Shown one piece after another: positions 2,764 through 10,207 of a stretch of 64,000 bases of DNA (positions are counted from its first letter, which is position 1; each line of letters begins with the position of its first letter). This DNA comes from Salinisphaera sp. LB1. GTDB taxonomy: Bacteria > Pseudomonadota > Gammaproteobacteria > Nevskiales > Salinisphaeraceae. The stretch lies in contig NZ_CP029488.1 of NCBI RefSeq assembly GCF_003177035.1, forward strand, positions 1,426,001-1,490,000, written 5' to 3'. The notes beneath the pieces were generated by a model. It was not told where the DNA came from. It saw nothing but the letters and a program-made list of their open reading frames with translations, and did not search any database. Position numbers and translations under genes: made by a program.

Positions 2764-3002
2764 CGTAGTGTATGTGATCTTTCAACGCTTGCGACCGGCG
2801 ATATGATCGGCAGAGAGAAATAATAGGGACGGGCCACGAGTCGTGGACAACCTGCTCAAGCCGCATCATGCCGATGCACTTCTTCCAGATCGCAATCAGC
2901 CTGCAACCCATCCGGAACTTCTCCCTCGTACCCCTCACTGTCAGACTACCTATCGTGCCTTCGAATACACTGTCTTAAACGAGAGGGCGATAGGAGAATG
3001 TC

Positions 3003-3500
3003 ATGCCTCGTTATTCTGAGGAACGCCGACAAGCCGTCGTGGCCAAGCTGCTGCCACCGCACGCGCTCAGTGCTTATGAGGTCGCCGACCAGGAAGGCAT
3101 TCCGGTCGCCACCCTCTACAAATGGCGTAAGGAAGCCCGCGCCGAGGGGCGATGTCTGCCCAACGCCAGCGATCAGGGTGTCGAAGGTTGGTCATCCCAG
3201 GACAAGTTCGCGGCCGTGGTCGAGAGCGCGGCCATGAATGGCGAGCAGATCGCCGAATACTGTCGCCGACGCGGGCTGTTCCCCGAGCAGCTCCAGCGCT
3301 GGCGCCATGACTGCGAGCAGGCAGCGAGCCTGTCTCACGAGGATCGGCGCCAGGAGGCGGCTCAGACCCGGGAACAGCGGCGCCGCATCCGCGATCTCGA
3401 GCGCGAACTCAAACGCAAGGACGCCGCTTTGGCTGAGACGGCCGCGCTGTTGACCCTGTCAAAAAAAGCGCGGGCGATCTGGGGGGACGAGGAGTCATGA
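3003..3500 (+). CDS. IS3-type transposase OrfA (helix-turn-helix protein)
   Basis: A 165-residue transposase OrfA-like protein. It has two consecutive helix-turn-helix blocks (YEVADQEGIPVATLYKWRKE and EQIAEYCRRRGLFPEQLQRW) and a C-terminal coiled coil (RRIRDLERELKRKDAALAET) of the kind that mediates OrfA dimerisation in IS3-like elements. AGGAG lies five bases before the ATG. It overlaps the start of the broken orfB at 3497 by four bases, the normal coupling of such elements. The element is truncated on its 3' side, so this is a remnant and probably cannot move on its own. Confidence 0.8.
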   Translation: MPRYSEERRQAVVAKLLPPHALSAYEVADQEGIPVATLYKWRKEARAEGRCLPNASDQGVEGWSSQDKFAAVVESAAMNGEQIAEYCRRRGLFPEQLQRWRHDCEQAASLSHEDRRQEAAQTREQRRRIRDLERELKRKDAALAETAALLTLSKKARAIWGDEES

Positions 3501-3690
3501 TCAGCGCCCCGGATCGCCAACACGCCGTCACGCTGATCGAGCAAGCCCGGGCTCAGGGTGCCCGCCTGGAAACGGCCTGCCAAGTGCTGGGCCTCACCGC
3601 CCGTACCCCATCAGCGCTGGACACGCGATGGCGGCGTACAGGAAGACCAGCGCCCTTTAGCCGACCGGCCGGTGCCACCCCCTATCCGGT
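3497..3690 (+). pseudogene. Truncated, frameshifted OrfB of the same IS3-type element
   Basis: The first ~38 codons (MISAPDRQHAVTLIEQARAQ and on to LGLTART) match the N-terminus expected for the OrfB partner. Similarity then continues in another frame (QRWTRDGGVQEDQRPLADRP), so an indel sits near 3612. After about 3690 neither frame looks like transposase, and no DDE catalytic domain remains. The element was therefore cut off, most likely when the AT-rich Kiwa segment came to lie beside it. I could not fix the left end of the element with confidence; it lies upstream of 3003. Confidence 0.65.
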
Positions 3691-3746
3691 GCGCTTTGGA
3701 GTGGAATCCGCCTTCCCCCAAGTGCCTATGCCCTCGGTCTGTTCCG

Positions 3747-4687
3747 TTAACGTTGACGACCGACTGTGGATGCATCTGGCACATCATAGATATTATGCGA
3801 GAAGCCTGACGCCAAACGATGATCCAAAAGAGCTTGAAAAATATCTCTACAATTTTCAGCTGTCGGAATAATTTGGTTAAATTCGTCGAACTCGATATCT
3901 AAGCCATACTGTTGAGCGTTTAATCTCAAGTTTTCCATAAACTGAGCATTCTTGTAATGGCCTTTTTGCCTAATCGCAGAAGCTCTTCGCAACTGCATTT
4001 TATTATTTCCAACGTATTCTCTTATATGAGTTAAATCACTAAAAACTTCGTTGAACTCATTTTCCTCTATAAGATCAACGAAATCCTGTTTATGAGCGTT
4101 TTTATAACTCGCTACCGTTTCGAAGGAGCCTTTAGACCGAACGAATATAGTTTCATCTAATATAAAAAAATCTACATATTTCGAGATGTTGAAAGCCGGC
4201 TGCTCGTTGAGAGTTAATTCCTCGTCTACGAAGAATGTGTTTATCCCACCTATCATTTTCTTTGCCGACCAACTGTTATCTACCTTTCTTCCTGAGAGCA
4301 GAGCCCCGCCCTGATCGTCTACAACTTTTATTATATAAAAATCAGCATTTTTAATATGCTTTACTTTTTTATCTTTTTAGCCTCCTCCTCGTCGGATACT
4401 GCCTCAACAACTCTCGGTATATGCGTCTCAATCAACGGGATAGTTAGAGCGCTATTACTATTAGTATCCGTTAATAAACTATATGCATCGATTTCGGTTA
4501 TTTTCTCTCGCTCAGACTCTAGACACTCCTTCAGCCGAGCGTCTAGCAGAGGGTCTGTTTCAATCCATCGTCCCGTGAATTTTGGGTCTTCGCTTCCGCC
4601 CGATTTCTTAAATATCCAAAGCGTTACCGTCGACTCATCCAGATTAAATTCGTGAAGATCGCAGAGACTACTCACCGTTTTCCCCAA
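3747..4687 (-). pseudogene. kwaB: Kiwa anti-phage protein KwaB (DUF4868), split by a frameshift
   Basis: Two AT-rich reverse-strand frames together make one KwaB-like protein. The 5' frame (to the stop at 4361) contains STVTLWIFKKSG and KITEIDAYSLLTDTNSNSAL. The 3' frame, read upstream of its first ATG (4256), runs KHIKNADFYIIKVVDDQ through KKMIGGINTFFVDEELTL, a DUF4868-style segment, and ends at 3747. A -1 shift near 4364-4370 joins them without loss. KwaB is the cytoplasmic DNA-binding partner of membrane KwaA in Kiwa. Start choice is uncertain: TTG at 4687, or GTG at 4675 with GGGGA upstream. The join is either an indel (pseudogene) or a -1 frameshift (see findings). Base composition is unlike the core genome, suggesting horizontal transfer. 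Confidence 0.75.
4344..4370 (-). promoter_or_regulatory. A_AAA_AAG heptamer, stop codon and hairpin at the kwaB frame junction
   Basis: On the reverse strand the 5' kwaB frame reads ATA AAA AAG TAA (4372-4361). It therefore contains the heptamer A_AAA_AAG, the same slippery sequence and phase used by E. coli dnaX, immediately before the stop. Three bases later AGCAT-attaaaa-ATGCT (4360-4344) can form a short stem-loop. A -1 slip gives the reading K-K-V-K-H-I-K-N-A-D-F, continuing into the downstream kwaB frame. The stem is weak and the spacing shorter than in dnaX, so a plain homopolymer indel is an equally good explanation. Confidence 0.4.
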
Positions 4688-4900
4688 TCTCTTTACCGAT
4701 TACTAAAACATGCCCAACGGAACTGTAGCTATACTTCGAACCAACCAAAATATCGACTTTAGACAATACTAATTTTTTTCTTATACTCCCCCCCTCCTAA
4801 ACTTTTAAATTCCACTTCGTTTAGAGTCCACCCTAAGACAACTAACAAAGGGTTAAGAAGTATCAATCCAGCCCGATGTGTTATCCAAAATAGCCACAAG

Positions 4901-4908
4901 AAAAAAAT
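4901..4908. repeat. 8-bp target-site duplication of the ISL3 element
   Basis: AAAAAAAT occurs at 4901-4908 and again at 6270-6277, directly abutting both element ends. Eight-base duplications are characteristic of ISL3 transposition. The perfect match argues for a recent insertion. Confidence 0.9.
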
Positions 4909-6269
4909 GGCTCTTGTGACATGGTTTGAGCCAATCATCCGGTCAGAGCGTACAGGCCAAGGGGTGGTTCGGGCGTTGCGCTTTGCCGGATTTTGAGTTT
5001 GAAGTATTCGGTATCGAGCAGTCCGCGAGCGCGTTTACGGATCAACCCGATCGCGACGTGGCCGCCTTCGAGTCGGGCGGTGGTGATGGGGTGGGCCGCG
5101 TAGTTGCAGATCCCGGTGCGATGCCGCTGTAGCATCGCCACGAAGCGTTTCATGGGGGCCAGCCCGGTGGCCTCGGCCAAGGCACACCAGGCATCCAGGC
5201 GCTGGCCCATGACGGTGAAGCTCGCTGGGGCGTGCCACAGTTGCTGGAGCTGTTCTTTCAAGGCATAGACTGCGTTGAGCGGGCCATTGACGGCGAGCAA
5301 CCGATCGAGTCGCGCGGCCTGGCTATCGCTCAAGCGTTCGGCGTTTTTGAGCAGCAGATAACGGCTGCCAACCAAGACCTGCTTGTCGGCGTGGGTTGCC
5401 CGCTTGAACTCGGTTCGGCGGACGGTATCGATCACCTTCGAATACTGCTGCATGACATGGAAGCGATCGAAGACGATGGCGGCGTTCGGCAACGCCTCGG
5501 CCACCGCCTGTTCAAAGGGCTTCCACATATCCATGGCTACGGCCTCGATGCCCTGGGCAACGGGCTCATCGAGCTGATCGAAAAACGCCGTCAGGCCGGC
5601 CTTGCGACGGCCCTCGGTGACCCATACCAGATCGCCGGACTCGAGGTCGTAGACGATGGTCAGATAATCATGGCCCTTGGCGCGGGCGACCTCGTCGACG
5701 CCCAGATGCCGCAGGCCGGTCAGTGCGCCAGGATCCAGAGCCGGCAGATCACGCGTCAACGCCCGTTCGTCCATAGCCTTGACCGTACGCCACGCCAGGC
5801 CGGTGTAAGCCGCGACGGCGGCGATGCTGATATGCCGAGCCAGTTGGCTGACAAACCGCGCATAGCGGCGTGTGAAGCCATGGCCGGGCTCGACGAACGA
5901 CAGCCGTTCCATACGGCGATCCGTCGCCCCGATCTTGAGCTGACAGTACGCGATCGAGAGCGTCACTGAGCGGCCCCAGATCGGCAGATCCTGAACCTCG
6001 CGACGCAGCCGTCGATTGACGGTGCCTCGTGCGCCGCTCCGGTGATCCACCGGCACGAAGCGGCGATCGCGGTCGCAGTGAAACACCAGCGTGCCACGAG
6101 CTTCGTCCCACGCCACGCCCTTGACGCACTGCCCGCGCAGACCAACAATCCAACTTGGGATGGTTGCCGCCATCTACAAACCCCTTCTGTATTTGTGTAG
6201 GAGCTTGTATTGAAACGGATTTGTCGGCGGCAGTCATCCCTCTCTAGCGCATGTCAGTGCAGAAGAGCC
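4909..6269 (-). mobile_element. Complete ISL3-family insertion sequence
   Basis: A 1361-bp element carrying one transposase gene. Both ends begin, read inward, with GGCTCTT; TGACATG follows at slightly different distances (left at 4909, right ending at 6269). The ends are flanked by the perfect 8-bp duplication AAAAAAAT. It lies in kwaA, with its transposase in the same orientation as the disrupted gene. Its GC-rich coding sequence resembles the host chromosome, not the AT-rich operon it entered, which suggests that it came from the resident genome. Confidence 0.9.
4935..6173 (-). CDS. ISL3-family transposase
   Basis: 412 residues, normal for ISL3 transposases. The central DDE domain is visible: HLGVDEVARAKGHDYLTIVY (first Asp), AVAMDMWKPFEQAV and IVFDRFHVMQQYSKVIDTVR (second Asp, with the family HV motif), and a C-terminal YAAHPITTARLEGG segment containing the last acidic residue. 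The N-terminal part holds the HTH region (HISIAAVAAYTGLAWRTVKA). The usual N-terminal zinc-finger segment is not evident in this reading. The frame is intact, so the element is probably active or recently so. Confidence 0.9.
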   Translation of the reverse strand: MAATIPSWIVGLRGQCVKGVAWDEARGTLVFHCDRDRRFVPVDHRSGARGTVNRRLRREVQDLPIWGRSVTLSIAYCQLKIGATDRRMERLSFVEPGHGFTRRYARFVSQLARHISIAAVAAYTGLAWRTVKAMDERALTRDLPALDPGALTGLRHLGVDEVARAKGHDYLTIVYDLESGDLVWVTEGRRKAGLTAFFDQLDEPVAQGIEAVAMDMWKPFEQAVAEALPNAAIVFDRFHVMQQYSKVIDTVRRTEFKRATHADKQVLVGSRYLLLKNAERLSDSQAARLDRLLAVNGPLNAVYALKEQLQQLWHAPASFTVMGQRLDAWCALAEATGLAPMKRFVAMLQRHRTGICNYAAHPITTARLEGGHVAIGLIRKRARGLLDTEYFKLKIRQSATPEPPLGLYALTG

Positions 6270-6756
6270 AAAAAAATAACGAATCCAAGAACTCCCAAAA
6301 GGTCGCTATAGTTTAGATTGATAAAAGCCAATATATAAGGAAAAACGTAGCTAACTAAATCAGACGACCTAGTCTCTACGCGTTTAACTACTATTGTCCT
6401 TTTTTTGCGAATAGACTTTAATAATAAAACCGTGATCAACAAAGAAAGTGAAGTTATGCTAACGAAAGATAAAGCTATAATCGGATTTTTAAGGGGTAAA
6501 TTACAATTATTCTGAGCCAGATTAAGACAAAATCTTAGCTTTTCCGAACTAATTGAGAGGTTTTTGACTAGCAAAATCAAAGCTAGCGGCACATATGACC
6601 CAAGAAAAAGAACGAACGAGAATAAAACTTTAGGCGTCATTAGCTTTGCTTTACTTCTACCGGAAGCTAGGCTTATACAGCAGCGGAGCCCTCAGGGATC
6701 ATTCTCAAGATAACTTGCGTCAATATTAAGCTATAGGGGTTAGGTATTAGCCTGCC

Positions 6757-6772
6757 CACGGTTTAGACCGTG
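6757..6772. repeat. CACGGT-ttag-ACCGTG inverted repeat upstream of kwaA
   Basis: A perfect 6-bp dyad with a four-base centre, in the 230-bp gap between kwaA (start 6640) and the IS3 element (from 6871). There is no T-run, so it is not a convincing terminator. It could be an operator or a degraded boundary sequence. I see no gene in this gap. Confidence 0.3.
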
Positions 6773-6909
6773 CCACTCAAGTCGTTCCTTAAGCCTGACA
6801 AATTTGATCACCCAAGCTTCAAGGACGTCGCTCTGATGCGCCGATATACTGACAGGTCACGTTTAAGACATGAACCGCCCCGGGTTTACCGGAGACTCGT
6901 GGGTTTGAG

Positions 6910-7815
6910 TCATGCCACTTTGGCAGACCCGGCGATTGTGTCATAGAAGTTGGCTTCAGCCTCGGCCGGCGGCATATCACCGATCGGCTCGAACAGCCGC
7001 TGATTATTGAACCAGTCGACCCAGTCCAGCACCGCGAACTCGACGGCGGCAAGGTGAGGCCACGGCCCGTCGTGCTGACGGATGACTTCCGTCTTGAACA
7101 GGCCGATCACGGTCTCGGCCAGCGCGTTATCGTATGAACTGCCGACGCGGCCGGCCGACGGGGTGATACCGACATCCGCCAGGCGTTCGCTATAGCGAAT
7201 TGACAGGTATTGCACCCCGCGGTCGGTGTGCTGAATCAGGCGCTGGCCGGGTTGCCGGTCATGGATGGCCTGCTCGAGCGCGTCGAGCACGAGGCCCGTG
7301 TTGGGGGCGCTCGAAACGCGCCAGCCGACAATGCGACGCGCGAACGCATCGATAACAAACGCTGCATAAACAAAGCCGTGCCGGGTCGGGCAGTACGTAA
7401 AATCGGCCACCCAGAGCCGATCGGGTCGGGCGGCTGTGAAGTCACGCTGGACGTGGTCGCCCGGGCTCGGTTGGTTGGGGTCGGAAGTGGTCGTTTTCGG
7501 CGTGCGCCCGCGCACAGCGCCTTGCAAGCCCATCTGACGCATCAGACGCTCGACCGTGCACCGAGCCACCGACCAACCCTCACGCTGCAACTGCAGCCAG
7601 ACTTTGCGGGCGCCATAGACGCAACGATTGGCCTCCCAGACCTGCTGGATGGCGTCGCTCAAGACCCTCTCACGTCGGTCCCGCTTCGAACGGCGAGCCG
7701 GGTCGGTTTGCCGGGCCTTGGCGGCATAGTAGGTCGACGGTGCGATCGGCAGCACACGGCAGATCGGCCCGACACCGTAGACCCGGCGATAATCGTCGAT
7801 GAACGTCACCATCAC
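6910..7815 (-). CDS. IS3-family transposase OrfB (integrase domain)
   Basis: 301 residues with a complete DDE catalytic core: [20 protein letters not shown] (first D), [20 protein letters not shown] (second D) and [20 protein letters not shown] (E). The N-terminal HTH_21-like region includes [20 protein letters not shown]. It starts with GTG at 7815, overlapping the orfA stop by four bases (GTGA), so it is expressed by coupling or as an OrfAB frameshift fusion, as in other IS3 elements. All expected motifs are intact. Confidence 0.93.
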
Positions 7816-8132
7816 TTGTGTCGGCGGTCGAGCTCCGCCTGGGCAAAATAGGCCGAAGCCTTGCGCAGGATCTCATTGGCCCGTTTCAACTCACGGTTCT
7901 CACGCTCAAGCGCCTTGATGCGCTCGCGCTCTTCCGTGCTCTGGCCATTGCGCAGCCCGCGGTCCCGTTCGGCCTGGCGAACCCAACTGCGCAGCGTCTC
8001 GGGCGTACAGCCGATCTTGCCGGCGATCGAACCGATCGCCGCCCACTGCGAGCTGTAGTCCGCCTGATGCTCAAAGACCATGCGAACCGCTCGTTCACGG
8101 ACTTCCGGGGAATAAGGTTTCCGCTGTTTCAT
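7812..8132 (-). CDS. IS3-family transposase OrfA
   Basis: 106 residues: an N-terminal helix-turn-helix ([20 protein letters not shown]) followed by a leucine-zipper-like coiled coil ([20 protein letters not shown]) that ends in the family tail [14 protein letters not shown]. OrfA binds the terminal repeats and dimerises with OrfAB. It lies just inside the right inverted repeat, as expected for the promoter-proximal orf. Confidence 0.93.
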
Positions 8133-8187
8133 GCTCCAATTCTCTCAAGAGTTGGAGTCTCCAGCATTCCCGGGGCGGTTCAACACG

Positions 8188-8784
8188 CTACTGGGCATCT
8201 ATACGCTTAATGGATAGCCTAATTGAACCTTGATTATTGCCGTACAGCAACCAAGCGTCGTTCATATAGCAATACAGATAACCAGACTGAACATTCTGTT
8301 CTCCAGCGGGAGGCCAACTTGTCGACTCACCGATCAAGAAGGTCGTGTGCTCAGCCGGTGTGCCATCTCGACCCGGGTTCCCACAGTCACTAATTGCACC
8401 AATCAGTGCTCCCCACGGGTTTGCGCCATCACGCCTAGTACCGACGAGTTCGGCATGCTGGTCATCAGTTAATTGCCGGTACCAATCGCCCACTGCACCG
8501 GTGAGCTTTTCGATCCCGTGCTTAACGTGAACCATTAGCGACGTCGACAATGTCCGCTTTTCACCAACACCGTTTGGCGACGTTTCATCATCACCATTCG
8601 CCCATTTTCCAGAGGCAGTTAGTTCGTACTGAGTTCCGGGCTCCATGTAGATCCCAGTCGAATTCCACCGCTCCTGAGCCTCAATCAAAATCGTTTCGCT
8701 ATCACCAGGTTCAAGTACCTTGGTCGCCCAGTAACTCGGCTCAGTGATAGGCGGGTAGTTCGTGCCGGACGAGTGCCGACTCAT
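8188..8784 (-). CDS. Carbohydrate-binding-like (LecA/PA-IL-like) C-terminal domain, separate ORF
   Basis: Starts at ATG 8784 with GGAGGA eight bases upstream and runs 198 codons. The sequence is beta-rich: RWNSTGIYMEPGTQYELTAS near the start, a GALIGAI segment in the middle and GYLYCYMNDAWLLYGNNQGS at the end. This resembles the galactose-binding/LecA-like modules often found at the C-terminus of DUF2235 hydrolases. It overlaps the DUF2235 gene by 44 bases in a different frame. Either the two are coupled cistrons, or an indel near 8755 split one two-domain protein; the strong ribosome site favours independent translation now. Upstream ORF codons as far as 8892 lie inside the DUF2235 gene and are not counted. 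Confidence 0.6.
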   Translation of the reverse strand: MSRHSSGTNYPPITEPSYWATKVLEPGDSETILIEAQERWNSTGIYMEPGTQYELTASGKWANGDDETSPNGVGEKRTLSTSLMVHVKHGIEKLTGAVGDWYRQLTDDQHAELVGTRRDGANPWGALIGAISDCGNPGRDGTPAEHTTFLIGESTSWPPAGEQNVQSGYLYCYMNDAWLLYGNNQGSIRLSIKRIDAQ

Positions 8785-9766
8785 GGAAAATATCCTCCGC
8801 GTTCTTACTGCGAAGATGCGGAACGTTTCTTGGCTGGTTTCGGAGGTGCGCGAAAATGCCGGTGAGTGAATCATGCCGCACATCCCACGCATTCGGAATT
8901 ACTTCCTTCCTGCCGTCCTGTTCCTCAACAATGCCAGGGCGAAACTGGAGCTCTGCGTGTTGTGCTTCGTGAATCATCCAGTCTAGCGCTCCATCCGAGA
9001 GACCCGTCTCTCTATAACCTCCGCCTACATCACAATGCACACCAGGAAACCAGACTTGGCGTGCATCTGGGTGCTGTTCGAGAGTAGACGCCTCCCACAA
9101 TGTCGGCATGAAGCTAGCACGTCGCTCATCAATCGCGACCGCATGGCGAGCAATCTTAACGGCGGGCGTCAGTCTGGTATTAAAAAACTGATAGCGCTTC
9201 GGATCATCCAATACGCCGAGTAAATGCATATGATCTGGAACGCCCAAAGCGCCGACGGTATCCCAGACTCCAAGAAAGTGGATCGGTAGTTTTGCGCCTT
9301 CGGCAAAAAACTCGGCATTTTGGCTGTCTGCGTTTGTTTCGTCACGATATGCCGAATAAGCTCTATCGACGTCCTCTCGCGCCTTATCCCCGGTCACCGG
9401 GCTTAGATTGAGCAATCCAACCGAGTGAATCATGCCAACTAGGCTTCGAGCTGTGTAGGCACCACGGCTGAACCCAAAAATGTAGATTCGATCCTCTGGC
9501 TGATAGTTGTTCCCGAGCCATTGATAAGCTTCCTTGATGTGCTTATCTAGCCCGATGCCCATCGCACCCCCTGCTACGCGTTGCCACCAATGCTCTTCAG
9601 TTCCGACACCGCTGTGATAGTACTTCCTCTGCTCCGTACCATCGGCGGAGTGGTCCGCAATCGCATTGTGAATACGCGCGACATTCGATGGCGTTAGAAC
9701 ACCACCCTCCCGCTGATCGGCTGTATCCCAAGTACCATCACAGCACAAGACAAGCTTCTTAGGCAT
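8741..9766 (-). CDS. DUF2235 alpha/beta-hydrolase (Tle1-like phospholipase effector family)
   Basis: From ATG 9766 (GAGGGGG upstream) the product is 341 residues. It has the DUF2235 hallmarks KLVLCCDGTWDTAD at the N-terminus, the nucleophile elbow IYIFGFSRGAYTARSL, the acid GVWDTVGALGVPDH and a histidine in WFPGVHCDVGGGY. This domain occurs in type VI secretion lipase effectors (Tle1) and in other bacterial hydrolases. No VgrG, PAAR or immunity gene lies nearby, so a secreted-effector role is not supported by context. Homologues often continue into a C-terminal binding domain, which here is the overlapping ORF at 8188-8784. The short tail ELPAYH before the stop looks like out-of-frame sequence. 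Confidence 0.8.
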   Translation of the reverse strand: MPKKLVLCCDGTWDTADQREGGVLTPSNVARIHNAIADHSADGTEQRKYYHSGVGTEEHWWQRVAGGAMGIGLDKHIKEAYQWLGNNYQPEDRIYIFGFSRGAYTARSLVGMIHSVGLLNLSPVTGDKAREDVDRAYSAYRDETNADSQNAEFFAEGAKLPIHFLGVWDTVGALGVPDHMHLLGVLDDPKRYQFFNTRLTPAVKIARHAVAIDERRASFMPTLWEASTLEQHPDARQVWFPGVHCDVGGGYRETGLSDGALDWMIHEAQHAELQFRPGIVEEQDGRKEVIPNAWDVRHDSLTGIFAHLRNQPRNVPHLRSKNAEDIFHESALVRHELPAYH

Positions 9767-9838
9767 CGAAGTCCCCCTCGTAAAATTCGCCCTAGCAAAT
9801 GACAACAACTCAAAAGCCTATAGCCAACAGATTTGGAG

Positions 9839-10087: not shown

Positions 10088-10180
10088 GCTCGGTCAAGAT
10101 TTCCCCCTCGGCACACGATTACTCGTTGCCTGATACAGACATTATGCAATTTCGCTCCGCCTGTAAATAACGCCGCCCAC

Positions 10181-10207
10181 AAAAAAGGCCGGCTAAGAGC
10201 CGACCTT
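10181..10207 (-). terminator. Rho-independent terminator of the pdh operon
   Basis: On the reverse strand AAGGTCGGCT-ctt-AGCCGGCCTT forms a 10-bp stem (one G-T pair) followed by a run of T. It lies 25 bases after the lpdA stop codon. Confidence 0.85.

Follow-up and report, generated by a model that had tools for sequence, protein, structure and literature searches.

Remains of a Kiwa anti-phage operon in Salinisphaera sp. LB1, broken by an ISL3-family insertion and losses of reading frame

Introduction

Kiwa is an anti-phage defence system of two proteins, KwaA and KwaB. In the account given in PMC12904381, KwaA forms membrane-embedded tetramers to which homodimers of KwaB bind. Infection is sensed at the membrane by KwaA; KwaB binds the injected DNA and, with no cutting involved, blocks both replication and late transcription (PMC12904381).

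Here, we analysed a 64,000-nucleotide stretch of the Salinisphaera sp. LB1 genome (hereafter the window, in whose numbering all coordinates are given) that holds kwaA followed by kwaB. Since the reading frames of both genes are interrupted, the locus is a broken Kiwa remnant rather than a working Kiwa. It is very probably the wreck of a horizontally acquired operon that was disabled by an ISL3-family insertion, a loss of frame in kwaA and a loss of frame in kwaB.

Results

A preliminary description, made from the letters alone, had taken the minus-strand stretch 3747-6640 for an AT-rich, decayed Kiwa operon, with kwaA damaged by an ISL3 element and kwaB by a frameshift; it would have to be abandoned if the repaired proteins hit neither a KwaA nor a KwaB profile. 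We scanned the pieces of the locus separately and with their frames unmended against PADLOC (PDLC) and Pfam profiles, and the four main pieces, belonging to both genes, gave strong matches to Kiwa profiles. Coordinates and strand were as described, and the kwa DNA has a G+C content of 38.2% versus 62.3% for the window. The gene order is that of Kiwa, with kwaA directly upstream of kwaB on the same strand, but neither gene is open: an insertion sequence (IS) and a loss of frame interrupt kwaA, and a further loss of frame interrupts kwaB (Table 1).

Table 1. Features of the kwa locus and its surroundings in the window
Feature	Position	Strand	Remarks
kwaA 5' part	6278-6640	-	121 codons before target duplication; ATG at 6640
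Target duplication, first copy, 8 bp, AAAAAAAT	6270-6277	.	Perfect repeat
ISL3-family IS, 1361 bp	4909-6269	-	Transposase 4935-6173; same orientation as kwaA
Target duplication, second copy, 8 bp, AAAAAAAT	4901-4908	.	Perfect repeat
kwaA 3' part	4668-4900	-	Goes out of frame within 4760-4796; natural end at the TAG 4668-4670
kwaB 5' piece	4361-4675	-	GTG start at 4675, inferred from alignment with relatives
kwaB frame-loss interval	4361-4376	-	A_AAA_AAG heptamer 4364-4370, then immediate TAA 4361-4363
kwaB 3' piece	3747-4376	-	Natural C-terminus and stop (3747)
Segment absent from sister genome G004	2933-9832 (~6.9 kb)	.	IS3-type remnant, kwa block, IS3-type element 6871-8182, two further genes

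The IS splits kwaA after about 123 codons. On both sides of it we found matches to PDLC00215, the profile of KwaA, a small multi-pass membrane protein: the open reading frame 6254-6640 (128 aa) covers profile positions 1-128 of 196 (E = 1.4e-37), and the frame 4759-4938 (59 aa) covers positions 122-162 (E = 5e-14), or 126-163 when taken as the piece 4762-4899. Two strong hydrophobic segments were predicted in the N-terminal piece, and none above threshold in the piece 3' of the IS. The element itself encodes an ISL3 transposase (PF01610, E = 1.5e-73; also PF13542) and has a G+C content of 62.5%. The perfect 8-bp duplication at its ends is of the length usual for ISL3. Including the copy in kwaA, eight copies in the genome are identical over 1361 bp, all eight with an 8-bp duplication of their own, and one further near-full ISL3-family copy is 99% identical. 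Identical copies and perfect duplications together indicate that the IS was recently active. The insertion alone suffices to break kwaA, whatever is made of the frame losses.

Removal of the IS in silico had been expected to restore a membrane protein of 170 codons. The count is correct, since the frame read downward from 6640 joins the 4899-4759 frame in phase, but the product is not the whole gene. KwaA of nine relatives is 193-206 aa long, and in LB1 the gene also goes out of frame downstream of the IS, within 4760-4796; the 170-codon product would therefore be a shortened KwaA. This interval contains homopolymers of seven C and of seven T. The natural last ~27 residues of KwaA lie in a third frame, up to the TAG stop. 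On a KwaA profile made from the nine relatives, the piece 4671-4796 in this last frame scored 4.3 bits (best of 500 shuffles, 2.2), and it aligns with the C-termini of all nine; a PADLOC profile search of the same short piece gave no match. As a putative KwaA C-terminus, it thus has evidence that is modest in score and strong in position.

For kwaB, two stop-to-stop pieces match the KwaB/DUF4868 profile PDLC00237 at positions 3-105 (E = 2.7e-28; E = 3.9e-28 as the open reading frame 4361-4687) and 104-305 of 306 (E = 3.9e-80; the open reading frame 3747-4256 alone, E = 7.1e-69). The 3' piece also passes Pfam PF16162 (86.4 bits, cut-off 26.3). That is, KwaB is complete, but spread across two frames, and the frame must change within the 16 positions listed in Table 1, in or beside which lies a run of six T. 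The end of kwaA and the GTG start of kwaB overlap by 8 bases (4668-4675, GTGAGTAG). Our reading of the kwaB break is that the frame was lost in a stretch rich in A.

We then compared the locus with other genomes. Among 17 genomes of the family, PDLC00237 was found in Salinisphaera sp. LB1 and in none of the other 16. It matched in 5 of the 369 genomes sampled from the class and in 7 of the 398 sampled from the phylum, which makes ten distinct genomes, as two are common to both samples; KwaB lies in two frames in two of the ten, LB1 and G379. In the sister genome G004, the counterparts of window positions 2932 and 9833 are only 271 bp apart, and everything between them in the window is missing. 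In genomes G013 and G010 the left border is the same (2932), and about 1 kb further on they match the window at 10178-10182. Composition, and the lack of KwaB in the other 16 genomes searched from the family, support horizontal acquisition of the kwa operon, and from these we infer a foreign origin.

Several side observations concern this segment. Its left border is exactly where a 60-78-bp stretch (window 2856-2932, ~87% identical in G004, G013 and G010) ends. The IS3-type element at 6871-8182 has several near-identical copies in the genome and no obvious target duplication here, which suggests rearrangement between copies. A composite transposon was considered and rejected, given that the flanking elements appear to differ in their orfA sequences and that the element at 6871-8182 has no obvious duplication at its sides. 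On the minus strand, window 8188-9808 holds two genes: the first product has a Tle1-like phospholipase domain (PF09994, E = 2.1e-85), and for the second, of 234 aa, no family scored above cut-off. Both genes lie inside the segment that G004 lacks, and may form an effector/partner pair.

Are the frame losses real? One alternative is that the IS insertion is the only true lesion, that one or both frame losses are homopolymer errors of sequencing or assembly, and that Kiwa was intact until a recent IS hop. Homopolymers (C7, T7 and T6) do lie in or beside both frame-loss intervals, and these are error-prone places; in G379, whose KwaB is split as well, the break likewise falls at a run of eight A. 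The eight IS copies count on both sides: they imply the recent hop that this alternative calls for, and their identity over 1361 bp also argues against it. In addition, nearby conserved genes seldom show candidate frame breaks. When open reading frames of G016 were set against 424 kb around the window, one of 61 orthologue-like genes (84.8 kb) had such a break, in a pair of 55% identity; the survey is a limited comparison, pooled over run types, and it probably hardly sampled AT-rich homopolymers, which are few in this GC-rich genome. The survey argues against a frameshift-ridden assembly, and no homopolymer error can explain the IS insertion. We regard the alternative as unlikely, yet worth serious consideration, and retain three lesions as the preferred reading.

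A second alternative takes kwaB as unbroken and decoded by programmed -1 frameshifting. A_AAA_AAG is the -1 slippery heptamer known classically from dnaX and IS3-type elements. In LB1 it is in phase with the incoming kwaB frame and directly adjoined by the stop; the purine-rich, Shine-Dalgarno-like GAGGAGGAGG lies about 10 bases upstream, and a 5-bp hairpin begins just downstream. However, an in-phase slippery heptamer was absent from kwaB in all eight intact relatives, and the downstream fold was unremarkable against shuffles (z = -1.41). Moreover, a single deletion could yield such a site in 259 of 2,000 kwaB-like genes under a shuffled-codon model, a rough guide restricted to runs of at least six A, and kwaA is broken regardless. 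Programmed frameshifting is thus highly improbable, although some leaky synthesis of KwaB from the broken gene is possible.

Since transposase, kwaA and kwaB share one orientation, the 3' end of kwaA and the kwaB gene could also be expressed from the IS, giving a KwaB-only activity; with kwaB itself out of frame, we give this slightly less credence still. The least credible reading of all is that -1 frameshifting yields a small, set amount of KwaB, which is kept as a KwaA-independent DNA-binding remnant.

Discussion

The locus had been presented as an acquired defence that is being lost or silenced, and our analysis supports this: composition and absence in relatives argue for the foreign origin, and three separate lesions for the loss. 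In the history that we favour, an AT-rich kwaA-kwaB pair would have entered the lineage from outside, inside a block bordered by insertion sequences. Its function would then have been lost through the hop of the ISL3 element into kwaA, a loss of frame near the 3' end of that gene and a loss of frame in kwaB. In the intact state, KwaA would have been the inner-membrane sensor and KwaB its partner, binding injected phage DNA. Since KwaA is shortened and the frame of KwaB is lost, both would be expected to fail: a full-length KwaA is impossible, KwaB could arise at best via rare slippage, and protection would not be expected.

Defence genes broken by insertion sequences and frameshifts are common. 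Kiwa is a known kind of system and its decay here an ordinary fate; knowledge of how Kiwa works is unchanged. The locus nevertheless illustrates clearly the loss of a horizontally gained defence, by a recent IS hop and frame losses, in the one sampled genome of the genus that carries it. It is also a warning, as a tool that takes a profile match as proof of a defence system would include this dead Kiwa in its count.

No close relatives of this KwaB were confirmed by tblastn in genome contigs or viral contigs, and a search of phage records with KwaB gave no match. Alignments were made with nine KwaA sequences, and with eight intact KwaB sequences together with the split pieces from G000 and G379; they left out the more distant KwaA/KwaB of G342, G205 and G458, as well as weak matches in G439, G592 and G634.

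Compared with intact Kiwa systems, LB1 differs in the IS and the frame loss in kwaA and in the frame loss in kwaB, and the best plasmid match of its KwaB 3' piece has 50.3% identity. As in Kiwa systems elsewhere, both proteins match their family profiles along most of their length, and the gene order recurs on Sinorhizobium alkalisoli and Rhizobium acidisoli plasmids and in several genomes. The 8-base overlap of kwaA and kwaB in LB1 is comparable to the 4-base overlap in four relatives (L011, L013, L018 and L047). The most similar case of damage is G379, where KwaB is likewise frame-split, at its A8 run (L013 1477-1538) and in roughly the same region of the protein. There, in contrast to LB1, kwaA is open (201 aa), and the break in KwaB lies about 25-30 residues further on, which indicates that KwaB lost its frame in the two genomes in independent events.
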